Notes under the pieces: model-generated
Seen by the model: the letters and a program-made list of their open reading frames with translations, nothing else
What the model was told of the DNA's origin: nothing
The model's database searches: none
Position numbers and translations under genes: made by a program
NCBI GenBank assembly: GCA_030017555.1
Contig: JASEIC010000006.1
Location: 1-38,185 of the forward strand
Length of the DNA stretch: 38,185 nucleotides
Reading direction: 5' to 3'
From: Patescibacteria group bacterium
GTDB taxonomy: Bacteria; Patescibacteriota; Minisyncoccia; UBA6257; GWB1-50-10
Shown here: one piece after another, positions 10,291 to 24,443 of the stretch
Layout: every line of letters starts with the position of its first letter
How positions within the stretch are numbered: the stretch's first letter is position 1

Positions 10291-11838
10291 ATGAAAAGAA
10301 CTGTTACTCTTGTTGTCTTGGATGGTTGGGGTATTGGCAAACAAGATGAATCAAACCCAATTTATGCCGCGAAACCCAAAACCATTGATTATATTCAAGC
10401 CAATTTTCCAAACGGCGCTCTTCAAGCCTCGGGTATTGCCGCGGGCCTTCCTTGGGAAGAAGAAGGCAATAGCGAAGTGGGTCATTTAACAATCGGTGCC
10501 GGGAAAATACTTTATCAGCATTTTCCAAAAATTTCATTGGCTATTGATGACGGCAGTTTTTTTGAAAATACGGCATTAAAAGAAGCTTTCCTGCATACCA
10601 AGAAAAATAAAAGCGCAGTTCATTTAGCGGGTCTTCTTACAAGCGGTAATGTTCATGCGTCTTTTAAGCATTTAATTGCTTTGCTTAATATGGCGAAACG
10701 CGAAAATATTTTTCAAATTTACCTTCAAATATTTGCCGACGGCAGAGATAGTCCTCCGCATTCAGCCGGTAAGTTTATTCAGGAATTAAGAAGTGAAATT
10801 CAAAAACTAAATCTGGGCAAAATCGTAAGTTTAAGCGGCCGATATTATGCCATGGATCGAGACGGCCATTGGGATCGTACTCGACAAACATATCGTTTAA
10901 TTACCGAAGCAAAAAATACTCCGCAAAACGTAGAACAAGTACTTAAAAAAACTTATGATCATAATTTGAGCGATGAATTTATTGAACCGGCGATAATTGA
11001 CGAACCGCACCCGGTCAAAACTAATGACGCAATAATATTCTTTAACTTCCGTGAAGATCGCATGCGGCAAATTACTGAACCATTTTTAAACCCAAGCTTC
11101 GATAAATTTCCCATTCAGAAAATCAAAAACCTTTATATCACCACCATGACCGAATACCAAGAAAGACTTCCGACCAATGCCGCTTTCCATAAAGAAAAAG
11201 TTGAAAGTTCTCTTGGTAAAATTCTTTCTGAAAATAATAAAACTCAGCTTCGTATTGCTGAAACTGAAAAATACGCTCACATTACTTACTTTTTTAATGG
11301 CTTGCAAGAAAAACCCTTCCCAAATGAATATCGAGTTTTAATACCATCAGACGATGTTGCTCATCGTGAAGACCGTCCAGAAATGCAAGCTCGAGCCATT
11401 ACCGACCGGGCTCTTATTGCGCTAAAAGAAGGCGGTTTTGATTTTGTTCTTATAAACTATGCAAATCCTGATATTGTTGCCCACACCGGCAATTATGATG
11501 CGACAGTCAAAGCGATAAAAACCGTTGACCAAGAATTAGAACGCCTTCTTGAAGCTGCTTTTTCAAATAATCACTTGGTTATTATCACCTCTGACCACGG
11601 CAATGCCGAGGTTATTTTTGATCCGAAAACCGGAAGCATTGAAACAAAACACAATACTAATCCTGTTCCTATTTATCTTGTTGCTCAAGAATATAGGCTG
11701 CCCAAACCAAAATATGCAAATCATATTCAAACAATTGGTTTGTTATCCGATGTCGCGCCGACAATACTCGCTTTAATGAATATCAGAAAACCACCGGAAA
11801 TGACAGGCCAAAGCTTACTTGATCAACTTCTTTTCTAA
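10291..11838 (+). CDS. gpmI: 2,3-bisphosphoglycerate-independent phosphoglycerate mutase
   Basis: A 515-residue cytoplasmic enzyme that interconverts 3- and 2-phosphoglycerate in glycolysis using two Mn ions. The first metal ligand is in VVLDGWG (Asp11), and the phosphorylated serine is Ser61 in GNSEVGH. Other family motifs are ADGRDSPPHSA, GRYYAMDRDGHWDR, ITSDHGNAE and TKHNTNPVP. The length is that of full iPGM. It is followed by a small membrane protein, with secG further along. Confidence 0.95.
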   Translation: MKRTVTLVVLDGWGIGKQDESNPIYAAKPKTIDYIQANFPNGALQASGIAAGLPWEEEGNSEVGHLTIGAGKILYQHFPKISLAIDDGSFFENTALKEAFLHTKKNKSAVHLAGLLTSGNVHASFKHLIALLNMAKRENIFQIYLQIFADGRDSPPHSAGKFIQELRSEIQKLNLGKIVSLSGRYYAMDRDGHWDRTRQTYRLITEAKNTPQNVEQVLKKTYDHNLSDEFIEPAIIDEPHPVKTNDAIIFFNFREDRMRQITEPFLNPSFDKFPIQKIKNLYITTMTEYQERLPTNAAFHKEKVESSLGKILSENNKTQLRIAETEKYAHITYFFNGLQEKPFPNEYRVLIPSDDVAHREDRPEMQARAITDRALIALKEGGFDFVLINYANPDIVAHTGNYDATVKAIKTVDQELERLLEAAFSNNHLVIITSDHGNAEVIFDPKTGSIETKHNTNPVPIYLVAQEYRLPKPKYANHIQTIGLLSDVAPTILALMNIRKPPEMTGQSLLDQLLF

Positions 11839-17917: not shown

Positions 17918-18754
17918 ATGAACAATAGACTGAGCGAGGAAAATAAAATATTTGAAAATTTAGATATTGACCAAGCATACAAAGAAGCGAATCGGCTTTT
18001 TAAAAAAGACGCAATTAAAATTTCAAATTTTTCTGATCTTTACGGTCAAAACATTATCAGTGAAGACGCGGCTTATGTTAAAAAAATGGAAGAATTATTT
18101 GTTAAAAACAACCTCCCTGAACAAGAACGAATAAAAAAACTTGCGGTTATTTTTGAAGCCCTTATCCATTACAATGTGGAACTTAATGACTGGTTTGGAC
18201 CAAATGCTTTTACTATAAAAACTTCTCGTTATGATGATATAAAAAATGGCATTGATGATATTGTTGAATTTGAGGAATCGGAAACAACCGTTTCTCACCT
18301 TGCTTTAGCAATTGACGTCACATTCAGTCCTGAAGAAAAACAAAAAACATTTGAACGAATTAAAAAAGAAATAGAATCTGGTGAATTAGCAAAAGTTAAA
18401 TACTTTCAGTCAGACCACATAAATATAAGAGGAGAGCTCATAAAAATACCAAGAGTAGTAATTGGCGCCGACACCAAAACTATTAAAAGACTTGGCATAG
18501 CTTGGTTGGAAAAAGATAATAAAACTTTAGGAAACGATCCGATTCAGCTTCAAATTCTAGAAGAAATCTTAATTCAATTAGAAGTTTTTCGAGCTTATGC
18601 AGAACGAGTAAAAAAATTGGAAATTGCGGAAATATATGAAAAAACACACGCGATGATTCAAAAAATTCACAATGAAAAAAGGTCGTCTATTGACGACTCT
18701 GGTATGCGCGATCACGTTTTTGACGCGATTAAAACCAGTCTTGATTATTTTTAA
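17918..18754 (+). CDS. Unknown conserved-type protein
   Basis: A protein of about 278 residues with no signal peptide or membrane helix, rich in Lys/Glu and mostly helical. The central segment shows acidic positions followed by a hydrophobic strand and an Asp (DDIVEF... LAIDVTF). This vaguely resembles the core of PD-(D/E)XK folds, but the Lys motif is not convincing. The frame is open from 17816, but a TAAAAT -10 at 17898-17903 makes the ATG at 17918 the best start. It is convergent with ileS and their stop codons overlap by four bases. Function unknown. Confidence 0.7.
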   Translation: MNNRLSEENKIFENLDIDQAYKEANRLFKKDAIKISNFSDLYGQNIISEDAAYVKKMEELFVKNNLPEQERIKKLAVIFEALIHYNVELNDWFGPNAFTIKTSRYDDIKNGIDDIVEFEESETTVSHLALAIDVTFSPEEKQKTFERIKKEIESGELAKVKYFQSDHINIRGELIKIPRVVIGADTKTIKRLGIAWLEKDNKTLGNDPIQLQILEEILIQLEVFRAYAERVKKLEIAEIYEKTHAMIQKIHNEKRSSIDDSGMRDHVFDAIKTSLDYF

Positions 18755-21700
18755 TTTTCTATTTTTCTAATTCCGATCCAAAGCGGCCATTCATCTAATC
18801 TCGTTTCTAATTCAACGCTAAATTTTGCCGAACGTTTAAAATCAATGGAAATTGCATTGATTTCTTTTTTAATTAAATCCTCGTTTTTCTCAAAAACATA
18901 AGTTAATTCCTTGCCGCCATCAGCCATTAATGCTATTTTATCTTTTGGTTCAAATTTACCGTCTTGTCTCAGATCTTGAACAATTCGCACAAATTCGCGA
19001 AGCCAACCCTCTTCCTTTAGTTCGTGGGTAATTTTAGTATCCAGTTCAAATTCGTTTTTTATACTTTTATCAAAAACAATATTTTTTACATTTATTTCGT
19101 CTTTCAAAATATCAAGCAATTCTTTCTGATTGTTTGATTTATGTCCGTCAGCTGACAGATTAATTTTAAGCTCCAAAAGCGGTTGTCTCACCTTAATTTT
19201 AACTTCGGCTCTTTTTGCTAATACGGCGCTCGCTAATTTCCTGATTTTTTCCATAGAATCAATTAAATCTTTATCAATAAACTCTTTATCGGCTTCCGGC
19301 CATTCTTCAAAATGAACTGATGCTTCATGATTTTTGTTTAAAGACTTATATAAAGCTTCGGCAAAAAACGGCGTAAAAGGCGCCATTAATTTACTTAAAA
19401 CAATAAGCGCATGTCCTAAAGTCTCGGAAGCGTTTTTATAATCTTTTTTTTCTTTTTCATTACCTTGACCTCTGACCGCAAGCGAAAAACGCCGGCGTGA
19501 ACGGCGGATATACCATTTTGATAAATCCTCGACAAAATTCTCTATAGATTTAGCTGACCGACCAACATCATAATTCTCTACGCCTTCGGTTGCCTCAATA
19601 ATTGTTTCATTAAGACGGGCAATAATCCATCGATCTAAAACATTTACTAGTTTAGTTTTTTTAACATCTTTCAGCGAATTAAAATCAGCGCACGCATATG
19701 AATCAAAAAATACAAACGAGTTGTAAATAAGTAATATAAACCGTCTTAATCCTTTCACTAAATCTAATTCATCAAACTTTTTTGTTTCACCCGGCGGATT
19801 AATGGTGAAGAAATACCATCTAATGGCATCGACGCCGTATTTTGCAATCACGGCCCAAGGATCAATAACGTTACCTCTAGATTTAGACATTTTCTGACCA
19901 TCTTTGTTTAAGACCAATCCTAAAGAAATCACGTTTTTAAAAGACAATTCAAAACCAAGCAAAACCGAAACAGCAAGAAGGGTGTAAAACCACCCGCGGG
20001 TTTGATCCATCGCTTCTGAAATATATTCAGCCGGAAAATTATTTGGTTTTTTTATATTTTCATTGCCTTTAAACAGCCAATGATTTTGAGCAAAAGGCAT
20101 TGCGCCAGAATCAAACCAAACATCAATTACTTCCGGAATTCGCTTCATTGCGCCGCCACAACCCGACTCCTTACATTTAAACTCAAACTCATCAACATAA
20201 GGTCTATGTGGATCAGTAATACCATATTCATTTCTCGGAAGATAAAATAAATCTATTTCTCGCCATTCTGCTTTGCCAATAAAATCATCGCCCCGCGCTT
20301 CTTTTCCTTCAATTGATTGTTCCACTCCCCAACCGCGCGCGGAAGTTTCTAGCATCCAAATAGGATATTCATGGCTTATTATTAAAATTGTTTTTCCTTT
20401 ATGTTTTTTCTCTAAATCAAATAGAGCTTCAGAAACACGTTTTGCCAATTCCAAAAGATTCTCGCCTCCTGGCGGTACTTTAGTGAATTTTTCTATATAA
20501 GAAGTAGTGAAATTACCATAAGTTTGACCGGGCTTACCGTTAAATTCACCGGTATTTATCTCTCTTAATCTTTTTTCAAAAATAATTTCTTTAACGCCTA
20601 AACCTGATGCAACAATCTCGGCTGTTTCTTTTGTCCGTCTAAAATCAGATGCCACAATTAAATCGATTTTTTCTTTTTTAAGATTTTCCACTGTTCTTTG
20701 AACTGCGGTTCTGCCTTTTAAAGTTAATGGATAAAGATTTTTGTCTTTTGGATCGCTATTTATAATATTTTTGATATTTGTCTCTGCTTCGCCATGACGC
20801 ATTACCAAATAGCGATTGCTGGCTTTTTGTTTTAAATTGCTTAATTCTTTGAAGCTTCCAATTACTTTTTGATGTCCGCATTTTTTGCATTGCCAAATTG
20901 GCATTGGCGTTCCCCAATATCTTTCTCTGGAAACTGCCCAATCTTTAACTTCTTTAAGCCACTCGCCAAAACGGCCATCCTGTAAATGTTCTGGAACCCA
21001 ATTTATCTTTTTGTTAGCCGCAAGGAGTTTTTCCCTCAATTTGCTCATAGCAATAAACCAAGAATCACGCGCGTAATAAAGGAGCGGCGTATCGCAGCGC
21101 CAGCAAAATGGATATTCGTGCTTATAACTTTCACTTCTCAAAAAATTACCTTGTTTTTTTAAATGATCAAATATTTTCTCGTCTGTTTCTTTTGTTTTAA
21201 CTTTCATTCCGTGAAATCCAACCACGTCTTTAGTAAATTTACCTTGTTCATCAACTGTGTGGTGCTCTGGCAAACCGACTTCTTTGCCTAAGTTATAATC
21301 ATCTTCACCATACATTACTGCTATGTGAACCACGCCCGTGCCTTCTTCCGTCGAAACAAATTTTGCCGGATAAACCTTATGGGCAGTTTTATTTTCGGGC
21401 GTTCTCGCTTTAAAAAGCGGTTCATATCCCAAATCAATCAAATTTTTTCCTTTGATATCGAGAATATTTTCTAATTCTTCGGTTTTAAAAACCTTGCTGA
21501 TAAGTTCGGATGCTAATATGTAAATTTCTTTGTTTTTTGAATCTTTTACCGCCCTATATTCAATATCTCTGCCCACTGCGAGCGCAATATTTCCAGGCAA
21601 GGTCCACGGCGTAGTTGTCCACGAAAGGATATAAGTTCGGTCGTCGGTCTTATATTGAAGAATTTGTTGGTCTTTACGAAGTTTGAATTTCACATACACA

Positions 21701-22320
21701 GACAATTCCTCAACCTCTTTATATCCTAAAGCCGCTTCATGCGAAGAAAGCGCCGTGCCGCACCGCGTACAAAACGGCACAACCTTATGTCCTTTATAAA
21801 GCAAATTTTTATCCCAAATATTTTTTAAAATCCACCAAAGCGTTTCAATATAAGAATTTTCGTAAGTGATGTATGGATTTTTTAAATCCAGCCAAAAACC
21901 AATTCGTTCAGTTAATTTTTCCCATTCTTCTTTGTATTGCCAAACAAGCTCACGGCATTTTTTGTTAAATTCTTTAATACCAAATTCTTCAATTTCTTTT
22001 TTTGATTTAAGACCCAATTTTTTCTCAACCTCAAGTTCAATCGGGAGCCCGTGAGTGTCCCACCCGCCTTTGCGTGGCACAAAAAACCCATTCATAGTTT
22101 TGAAGCGTAAAATAATATCTTTAAAAACCCGGGCTAAAACATGATGGATGCCCGGCCGCGCATTTGCGCTCGGTGGTCCTTCATAAAAAACAAATGTTTT
22201 TTTCTGATTTTTTCTAAAATCTAAGTTTTTCTCCGGAATATTATTTTTCCGCCAAAAATCCAAAACTTTTTCCTCAATTTCCGGCAATGAAAATTTTTCT
22301 AAATCTTTAAGCATAAACAA
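18751..22320 (-). CDS. ileS: Isoleucyl-tRNA synthetase with embedded histidine-phosphatase domain
   Basis: A 1189-residue class Ia synthetase. The HIGH-type motif is PGIHHVLA (57-64), the KMSKS motif is DGQKMSKSRGN (about 806-816), the editing-domain region includes LSWTTTPWTLPGN, and the anticodon-binding domain follows (about 860-1060). A zinc module begins at CKKCGHQ (about 475). It is then interrupted by some 200 residues and resumes at HRPYVDEFEF and CKESGCGG (about 704-722). The insert is a complete histidine phosphatase (phosphoglycerate-mutase superfamily): RHGE with His509, SDFRRTKETA, LREINTGEFNG and the second catalytic His650 in SHEY. Without it the protein would be about 990 residues, normal for IleRS. 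It is probably monocistronic. Confidence 0.95.
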   Translation of the reverse strand: MFMLKDLEKFSLPEIEEKVLDFWRKNNIPEKNLDFRKNQKKTFVFYEGPPSANARPGIHHVLARVFKDIILRFKTMNGFFVPRKGGWDTHGLPIELEVEKKLGLKSKKEIEEFGIKEFNKKCRELVWQYKEEWEKLTERIGFWLDLKNPYITYENSYIETLWWILKNIWDKNLLYKGHKVVPFCTRCGTALSSHEAALGYKEVEELSVYVKFKLRKDQQILQYKTDDRTYILSWTTTPWTLPGNIALAVGRDIEYRAVKDSKNKEIYILASELISKVFKTEELENILDIKGKNLIDLGYEPLFKARTPENKTAHKVYPAKFVSTEEGTGVVHIAVMYGEDDYNLGKEVGLPEHHTVDEQGKFTKDVVGFHGMKVKTKETDEKIFDHLKKQGNFLRSESYKHEYPFCWRCDTPLLYYARDSWFIAMSKLREKLLAANKKINWVPEHLQDGRFGEWLKEVKDWAVSRERYWGTPMPIWQCKKCGHQKVIGSFKELSNLKQKASNRYLVMRHGEAETNIKNIINSDPKDKNLYPLTLKGRTAVQRTVENLKKEKIDLIVASDFRRTKETAEIVASGLGVKEIIFEKRLREINTGEFNGKPGQTYGNFTTSYIEKFTKVPPGGENLLELAKRVSEALFDLEKKHKGKTILIISHEYPIWMLETSARGWGVEQSIEGKEARGDDFIGKAEWREIDLFYLPRNEYGITDPHRPYVDEFEFKCKESGCGGAMKRIPEVIDVWFDSGAMPFAQNHWLFKGNENIKKPNNFPAEYISEAMDQTRGWFYTLLAVSVLLGFELSFKNVISLGLVLNKDGQKMSKSRGNVIDPWAVIAKYGVDAIRWYFFTINPPGETKKFDELDLVKGLRRFILLIYNSFVFFDSYACADFNSLKDVKKTKLVNVLDRWIIARLNETIIEATEGVENYDVGRSAKSIENFVEDLSKWYIRRSRRRFSLAVRGQGNEKEKKDYKNASETLGHALIVLSKLMAPFTPFFAEALYKSLNKNHEASVHFEEWPEADKEFIDKDLIDSMEKIRKLASAVLAKRAEVKIKVRQPLLELKINLSADGHKSNNQKELLDILKDEINVKNIVFDKSIKNEFELDTKITHELKEEGWLREFVRIVQDLRQDGKFEPKDKIALMADGGKELTYVFEKNEDLIKKEINAISIDFKRSAKFSVELETRLDEWPLWIGIRKIEN

Positions 22321-22468: not shown

Positions 22469-22822
22469 ATGAAAAAAATAATTTCTTTGTTTTGTCTTAT
22501 TTTTTGTATATTTTTTCTGACCGCATGCGAAAATACCGCAAAATTCAAAATCGCTTACGGCAATCGGTTAGATGCCGACATCGATGCAGTTCTTAACGGC
22601 AATAATATTGGTATGGTTCTAGCTGGCGAAGCTAGAGAATTCACGATAGAACTCGAAATTTTAGATTCATCACCAACTAGTCCGCATGAACCAGAAATGG
22701 CTTATGCGACTGCCTCGGCCAGAAACCGTAAAACCGGCAAACTCTCAAGATCTTATCCGATTACTCTTTATACTGATCGATCTACCTACATTGAGGTAAA
22801 TCCTTGGGATTTTCCAGAATAA
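22469..22822 (+). CDS. Small lipoprotein, unknown
   Basis: A 117-residue protein with a lipoprotein signal peptide ending in the lipobox LTAC, so Cys20 would be lipidated and the protein anchored outside the cytoplasmic membrane. The mature part is about 97 residues, beta-rich in appearance, with no motif I know. It has a clear promoter and a Shine-Dalgarno-like AAAGGA, unlike most genes here. It is followed by a hairpin shared with argS. Confidence 0.8.
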   Translation: MKKIISLFCLIFCIFFLTACENTAKFKIAYGNRLDADIDAVLNGNNIGMVLAGEAREFTIELEILDSSPTSPHEPEMAYATASARNRKTGKLSRSYPITLYTDRSTYIEVNPWDFPE

Positions 22823-22853: not shown

Positions 22854-24443
22854 TTACATTTTATCTGGCGCGGAAATTCCTAAAACTTCAAAGAGATCTT
22901 GAAAAACAATAACTGCGGCTTTTATAAGCGAGGCACGGGCATTAACTATTTTTTCTTCTTCGCCAATAACCCGCTCTTTTTCATAAAAATCATGGAATAC
23001 TCGGCTTAAATCTTGAGCATAACGGGTAAGTCGATGTAATTGATAATCTTTGCTTGTATCCTCCAAAACTTCTGGAAAACGTGAAAGATTCAAAATAAGA
23101 TTCAAATCTTCTTTTGTGTTTAGAATGCTCAAATCCGCTTTTTTAGATATTTTGCCTAATTTTTCCAAAATATTTTTCGCCCTCACATAAGCATATTGCG
23201 CGTAAAAAACCGGATTTTTCCGCGATCGCTCTTTAGCAAGACCAATATCAAAATCCATGTGAGTACCCACTGAAATCATCAAGAAAAAGAATCGGGCCAC
23301 GTCTTCTCCGACCTCATCAATCAAATCTTCAAAAGTCACAAACTCGCCTTTTCGTTTGGACATTTTCGCTTCTTTGCCGTCACGCACAAGCCGGATTGCC
23401 TGCGTAATAATTACTTCTGATTTTTCAAGACCAATAATTTTTGCCGCCGACTGAATACGCTTAACATAACCGTAATGATCTGGCCCCAAAACATTGATTT
23501 TCCCGTCAAAGCCGCGCTCTTTTGTTTCTAAATAATGGCCGGCGTCAGCTAAAAAATATGTTGGCTCATGATCGCTTGTCATAAGCACGCGATCTTTGTC
23601 ATCTCCAAATTCTGTTGTTTTGAGCCACATCGCGCCGTCTTTTTTATAAACCTTACCCTCTTTATCAAAAAGCTTTAACACTTTTTGAATTAAGTCTTTT
23701 TTATGAATATCTTTATCTTCTGAAGTAAACCGATCAAAACGAATTCTTGCTTTGTCCTGAACTGCTTTTTTTATTAATTTCAAAAAATCTTCCGCTGCCC
23801 GCTGACCAAGTTTTAACGGATTATTTTTGTTTTCTTCAATAATTTTTTTATTTTTCTCCGCCCACTTCTTTATGTAATCGCCTTTATAAAATTCTTCTTC
23901 TTCTTTTAAAAATCCGGCGGCGGCTAAAATCGATTTTCCAAAAGTAATAATTTGATTTCCTGTATCATTAACATAATATTCTCGTTCAACTTCATAACCC
24001 GACCATTGAAGCACGTTTGAAAGCACGTCGCCGAAAAATCCGCCCCGGCCATTAGCTAAGGTCAAAGGTCCGGTAGGATTAGCGGAAATAAATTCAACCT
24101 GCACTTTTTCAATTTTGCTCTTTGACAATTTTTTCTTGCCAAAATCATTGCCGGCTTTCAAAATTTCCTGCAATCTTTTATGAAGAAAATCCAATGAAAA
24201 ACTAAAATTAATAAATCCCGGCTTTGAAATTTCTATTTTTTCAAAAATAAACGGTTCTTTCTTAAGAAAGGCGTTTTTTGATTCCTCGGCTGTTGCCATC
24301 GGATCGCTCTTTTTTTCTTTAGCCAATCGAAAAGCCACGTTCGTGCTGTAATGGCCGTATTTTTCATCATCGGGTATCAAAACATCAAAATCTATTTTTT
24401 TCGGAACTGTTTTTTTTATTAAATCAATGATTATTTGCCTCAT
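22854..24443 (-). CDS. argS: Arginyl-tRNA synthetase
   Basis: A 529-residue class Ia synthetase with an N-terminal Add1-type domain (about 1-95), the catalytic Rossmann fold, a KMSK-type motif (KMSKRKGEFVTFEDL) and a C-terminal helical anticodon-binding domain that ends at about residue 529, slightly short. The segment corresponding to HIGH reads NPTGPLTLANGRGG: the usual HxGH is TLAN (128-131), with both histidines absent. The ATG overlaps the stop of the upstream unknown gene by four bases (ATGA), implying coupled translation with it and with the Cas4-like nuclease gene upstream. Confidence 0.95.
   Translation of the reverse strand: MRQIIIDLIKKTVPKKIDFDVLIPDDEKYGHYSTNVAFRLAKEKKSDPMATAEESKNAFLKKEPFIFEKIEISKPGFINFSFSLDFLHKRLQEILKAGNDFGKKKLSKSKIEKVQVEFISANPTGPLTLANGRGGFFGDVLSNVLQWSGYEVEREYYVNDTGNQIITFGKSILAAAGFLKEEEEFYKGDYIKKWAEKNKKIIEENKNNPLKLGQRAAEDFLKLIKKAVQDKARIRFDRFTSEDKDIHKKDLIQKVLKLFDKEGKVYKKDGAMWLKTTEFGDDKDRVLMTSDHEPTYFLADAGHYLETKERGFDGKINVLGPDHYGYVKRIQSAAKIIGLEKSEVIITQAIRLVRDGKEAKMSKRKGEFVTFEDLIDEVGEDVARFFFLMISVGTHMDFDIGLAKERSRKNPVFYAQYAYVRAKNILEKLGKISKKADLSILNTKEDLNLILNLSRFPEVLEDTSKDYQLHRLTRYAQDLSRVFHDFYEKERVIGEEEKIVNARASLIKAAVIVFQDLFEVLGISAPDKM

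Follow-up and report, generated by a model that had tools for sequence, protein, structure and literature searches.

The window (the whole stretch of DNA analysed, 38,185 nucleotides) carries on its minus strand the ileS gene of an isoleucyl-tRNA synthetase (IleRS) with an embedded phosphatase, a single open reading frame of 1189 aa (18751..22320). The frame begins with TTG, and the ATG at 22314 is the likelier start. The argS gene (22854..24443, minus strand; domains Arg_tRNA_synt_N, tRNA-synt_1d, and DALR_1) lies upstream of ileS on the same strand. A small lipoprotein-like ORF occupies the gap between them on the opposite strand (22469–22822, plus strand). Pfam domains detected in the 1189-aa protein were tRNA-synt_1, His_Phos_1, Anticodon_1, and DUF5915. 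The protein scored 887.7 bits with the IleRS equivalog model TIGR00392 (ileS), well over the cut-off of 621.4 bits, and was the sole frame above this cut-off in its own genome (99% complete). The Zn-binding cysteines, the HIGH-type motif, KMSKS, and the anticodon domain were united in one frame; the synthetase motifs on either side of the phosphatase, including both zinc-ribbon halves, are thus intact, as the initial annotation had read them from the sequence. Charging of tRNA-Ile is the predicted function of the protein.

The first half of the zinc ribbon, CKKC (Cys478 and Cys481; 20878..20889, minus strand), aligned with the corresponding motif of Thermus thermophilus IleRS, and the second half, CKESGC (Cys716 and Cys721), was located at 20158..20175 of the same strand. 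Cys478, Cys716, and Cys721 were invariant in the alignment of relatives. Comparison with the PDB matched residues 3–494 to residues 1–477 of T. thermophilus IleRS (1ile) and residues 703–1039 to 489–818. Since the alignment halts at residue 477 of 1ile and restarts at 489, an insert of about 200 residues replaces an 11-residue loop. It lies in frame, in the loop joining the two halves of the ribbon (CKKCG and CKESGCG).

The insert is a branch-1 histidine phosphatase domain (residues ~502–694; about 20239..20817, minus strand) according to PF00300, the structural model, and Foldseek. The His_Phos_1 profile PF00300 matched residues 505–668 with 105–110 bits (cut-off 21.7; E 4e-30 to 1e-31). The AlphaFold2 model of the insert had a pLDDT of 94.9, a confident alpha/beta fold of the family, and Foldseek matched it to histidine phosphatases, namely HFP (E 1e-13), GpgP, PspA, and PhoE. 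The insert scored above the cut-off of no named NCBIfam equivalog. A second His_Phos_1 match was absent from the genome (674 kb, 99% complete), so that the insert is its only one. The whole-protein model had a pLDDT of 88.6 and a pTM of 0.82; Foldseek recovered 1ile with a TMt of 0.94 and 8c8v with a TMt of 0.83, and the value for 1ile suggests that the synthetase fold is undisturbed by the insert. The initial annotation had proposed a complete histidine phosphatase within the zinc module at 20250–20830, which lies no more than about 15 bases off the domain boundaries, and had suggested a profile search and a structure prediction as checks; both agreed with it, as did the conservation and survey data given below, and the insert was predicted to fold as a histidine phosphatase.

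All the features of branch 1 were found in the insert: the RHG motif, the second arginine, the acid, and the second histidine. The catalytic residues named in the initial annotation proved correct, and all of them fell in invariant columns when 35 embedded domains from the order were aligned. These are Arg508 and His509 of the RHG motif, the latter being the nucleophilic histidine (20794..20799, minus strand, as for the following residues); Arg562, the phosphate-binding arginine of SDFRRTKETA (20635..20637); Glu587, the putative general acid of LREINTGEFNG (20560..20562); and His650, the second catalytic histidine of SHEYP (20371..20373). A wider set comprised 115 IleRS-embedded domains, including independent insertions, with counts taken only among those with letters at the position. 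Arg508 was conserved in 114/114, His509 in 113/114, Arg562 in 114/114, and His650 in 113/113 of them, and the position of Glu587 was occupied by glutamate in 111 domains and by aspartate in three. Compared with the genus-mate G001, the window had a dN/dS ratio of 0.117 in the insert vs. 0.089–0.141 elsewhere in the gene. Together with the conservation of the catalytic residues, this indicates that the phosphatase has been kept by purifying selection as strictly as the synthetase. The same data are strong evidence of phosphatase activity, though short of proof, and the embedded domain is very probably an active, tethered phosphomonoesterase within a bifunctional IleRS.

The arrangement was widespread among relatives. 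Within the family, 30 of the 34 other genomes had phosphatase matches in long, IleRS-sized frames, as did 20 of 24 additional genomes from the order. Across the phylum, in an even sample with 112 genomes having a strong ileS match, this match was split in 18, with frames of 1124–1480 aa; within the class of the window, Paceibacteria, it was split in all nine genomes sampled. Named carriers were Jorgensen-, Lipton-, Sungii-, Nomura-, Yanofsky-, Zambryski-, and Giovannonibacteria, and the IleRS of Peribacteria and Peregrinibacteria carry other phosphatases. Two different IleRS genes, each with a phosphatase insert, were present in one genome (G038:C8 and G038:C20). In three genomes of the same family as the window (G004, G009, and G015; 96–98% complete), no IleRS exceeded the TIGR00392 cut-off, owing to a missing contig or to true absence, and the only matches to this model were ValRS-like.

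Outside Patescibacteria the trait was not recovered. The fetched non-CPR IleRS (Thermus, Chloroflexi, Spirochaetes, Clostridiales, Ignavibacteria, Euryarchaeota, and others) had no insert at this site, and every matching domain in 54 Caldisericota genomes was standalone, none being embedded. No place in plasmids covered 80% of the junction query, and viral contigs gave only one IleRS-like match, limited to residues 1–47. Identical in-frame arrangement in most related genomes, surveyed as the initial annotation had advised, rules out an assembly or frameshift artefact; the embedded arrangement is far beyond chance.

On the IleRS tree, which was built with the insert left out and is, like the domain tree, a quick tree with modest internal support, presence and absence of the domain amounted to 12 changes, at least nine of them forced by well-supported branches. 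The insert-free IleRS of Sungbacteria was sister to an insert-bearing one, and the comparison of Sungbacteria with Sungiibacteria showed identical flanking residues and a clean insert edge. Several lineages have lost the domain with their IleRS left intact. In the domain tree, the inserts of Paceibacteria and their standalone relatives formed one group (SH-aLRT 96), and the Peribacteria-type and ValRS inserts were placed outside it. The AU test rejected a common origin for all IleRS inserts (p-AU 0.0014) and was borderline for the ValRS inserts (p 0.050). IleRS and ValRS elsewhere in Patescibacteria received other phosphatases by independent insertion. In these Patescibacteria (CPR), the phosphatase embedded in IleRS is an ancient trait maintained by selection and has been acquired and lost repeatedly.

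The argS–ileS neighbourhood seen in the window is common in insert-bearing Paceibacteria. Four insert-free relatives (loci L108, L109, L110, and L152; genomes G394, G319, and G377, and L152 from Staskawiczbacteria) had argS, then a free phosphatase gene, and then ileS; for G377, only the first part of the gene beyond the phosphatase and a short ORF was seen. The initial annotation had named separate genes in related genomes, with the fusion an assembly artefact, as evidence against its reading. The separate form does exist in these few relatives, and the fused form is no artefact for that. Two further genomes (G045 and G055) had a standalone phosphatase elsewhere, not adjoining ileS, and no close phosphatase was found in the genome data searched for several insert-free Paceibacteria. 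The view that the phosphatase is indispensable and kept by every Paceibacterium was rejected on account of these last genomes, and its activity therefore appears to be useful rather than essential.

The phosphatase was not the only enzyme found inside synthetases of the phylum. IleRS of the Peribacteria type contained two tandem phosphatases. IleRS with further additions included those of G288 (L094:1667-6382, 1572 aa) and G103 (L097:2638-6990, 1451 aa). One IleRS held three phosphatases, a pair close to the zinc ribbon and a third immediately preceding the anticodon domain; in a relative, a GNAT domain was central and a phosphatase took the later position. ValRS carried one phosphatase in several genomes and two in one genome. 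A single ValRS frame of G274 (L105:327-4157, 1277 aa) combined HAD, serine-hydrolase, and histidine-phosphatase inserts, and a LeuRS of G038 (L210:1676-5554, 1293 aa) had inserts of an alpha/beta (RBBP9-like) serine hydrolase and NUDIX. The hosts checked came from the 150 top-scoring His_Phos_1 matches across 286 genomes and from the fetched frames, and every checked frame over 600 aa with His_Phos_1 was an IleRS or ValRS. The pairing is thus not random, which argues against random capture; this specificity does not prove a role in charging. The other long frames examined were 396–552 aa, with the phosphatase at one end. Among these end-on fusions (L298, L299, L300, and L301), one phosphatase followed a NUDIX-box-like stretch, and the others had unidentified N-terminal parts.

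Taken together, we consider the gene product a bifunctional enzyme, a class Ia IleRS with an active, tethered, and detachable phosphomonoesterase, and we put the probability of this reading at about 0.7. The product would be a normal class Ia IleRS whose zinc ribbon bears, at its tip, a separately folding and catalytically competent phosphatase. According to the mechanism of the superfamily, the substrate would phosphorylate His509, with Arg508, Arg562, and His650 binding the phosphate; Glu587 would serve as the acid, and water would then free the phosphate. The substrate would be a small phosphomonoester, and the phosphatase would not act through aminoacylation chemistry, because the IleRS of relatives works without the insert. 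The chance that this substrate is made or met at the activation of isoleucine or valine is, in our estimate, one in two. Candidates are a nucleotide, another phosphorylated by-product, or the phosphorylated enzyme or tRNA. A substrate of this kind would explain why phosphatases were repeatedly inserted in synthetases and not in other large proteins. A role linked to a ligand of aminoacylation or to the regulation of charging, as guessed in the initial annotation, is favoured by insertion that is specific to class Ia synthetases and recurrent, as well as by the free form between argS and ileS; IleRS without the insert in several lineages and standalone copies away from ileS disfavour it. The GNAT and serine hydrolase in synthetases of some relatives also fit a merely permissive site. 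The odds between a phosphatase serving aminoacylation and a passenger with host-guaranteed expression are close to even.

The passenger explanation supposes that the gene of a metabolic or house-cleaning phosphatase once adjoined ileS and was caught in a permissive loop, unrelated to charging, and was retained because its own activity is useful and an essential host gene guarantees its expression. We rate this a little under even odds. The insert being the only His_Phos_1 domain of the genome is consistent with it, as are the free copies that survive, in situ or elsewhere, where IleRS lacks the insert, and the NUDIX, HAD, GNAT, and serine hydrolase domains inside Ile/Val/LeuRS of relatives. 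However, among the examined frames over 600 aa the domain was embedded only in IleRS and ValRS, and from several separate sources, although other large proteins would be expected to host a passenger too.

A role in local quality control or regulation is a serious contender that falls somewhat short of an even chance. The tethered phosphatase would clear an inhibitory or damaging phosphorylated molecule arising or encountered at Ile/Val activation, or dephosphorylate the synthetase or tRNA and so tune charging. Recurrent insertion confined to aminoacyl-tRNA synthetases agrees with such a role, NUDIX and HAD, two other inserted families, are also largely phosphohydrolases, and the operon with argS and ileS points in the same direction; the loss of the domain in several lineages with an intact IleRS speaks against it. 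Extended to the phylum, our tentative picture, which we hold at rather less than even confidence, is that Patescibacteria possess recurring multi-enzyme synthetases for isoleucine, valine, and sometimes leucine. Their tethered phosphohydrolases would form an added quality-control or regulatory layer of multiple origins from unrelated phosphatases, frequently inserted at the one loop of the zinc ribbon, with modules mobile between the interior of ileS and the argS–ileS gap.

By analogy with GNAT and peptidase enzymes that act against microcin C-type aminoacyl-adenylate antibiotics, the embedded domains might modify aminoacyl-nucleotide-like inhibitors and shield the synthetase. The GNAT domain in the IleRS of one relative and the existence of an NCBIfam exception model for IleRS with GNAT are in line with this. 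We regard it as improbable: a resistance cassette would hardly be expected to persist so long under strong purifying selection, and the window protein fell far below the cut-offs of the exception models for GNAT and for mupirocin-resistance IleRS, with 752 and 789 against 1900 for MupA and MupB. A catalytically dead structural spacer is highly improbable, no support for it was found, and it was rejected in view of the nearly invariant catalytic residues and a dN/dS of 0.12. Least probable of all is that the insert supplies the phosphoglycerate mutase of a genome otherwise lacking one, for although it belongs to the superfamily containing dPGM, it scored 78.5 bits with dPGM_arch against a cut-off of 225, outside dPGM membership, and this reading was rejected because an iPGM-like gene, a PF01676 metalloenzyme of iPGM size, is present in the same window (10300–11787).

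Few enzymes have been studied as much as aminoacyl-tRNA synthetases, yet an entire bacterial radiation houses a second, apparently active enzyme within an essential one. Should the phosphatase prove to be coupled to the activation of isoleucine and valine, this would point to synthetase quality control or regulation of a kind undescribed in the literature found. Should it instead be a passenger, the inserts would show clearly how enzymes were captured time and again by a single permissive loop, with their gain, loss, and excision apparent from closely related genomes. Automatic annotation is incomplete here, as a protein of this type is called simply isoleucine--tRNA ligase on the IleRS profile alone. 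The open-access literature, to which the search was confined, yielded no account of a phosphatase within IleRS or ValRS, a result that does not in itself prove novelty.

Synthetases that have acquired extra domains are already known, reflecting the modular growth of these enzymes. AARS Online lists GST, WHEP, and editing superfamilies as additions to synthetases, and a phosphatase is named zero times in the main text of its paper (PMC11580382). The IleRS with an N-acetyltransferase domain (NCBIfam NF040702, ileS_w_GNAT) likewise bears an extra enzyme domain, but the window protein reached only 334 bits with this model, against a cut-off of 1999, and had no GNAT match. The histidine phosphatases of branch 1, HFP (9mmh), PhoE (1h2e), PspA (4ij5), and GpgP (4pz9), have the same fold and catalytic residues at 22–27% identity; unlike them, the phosphatase of the window is embedded in a synthetase. 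The IleRS of Thermus and the type 2 IleRS (1ile and 8c8v) resemble the window protein in the whole synthetase, in both zinc sites, and in the editing and anticodon domains, whereas Thermus IleRS has an 11-residue loop where the window protein has a phosphatase of ~195 residues.
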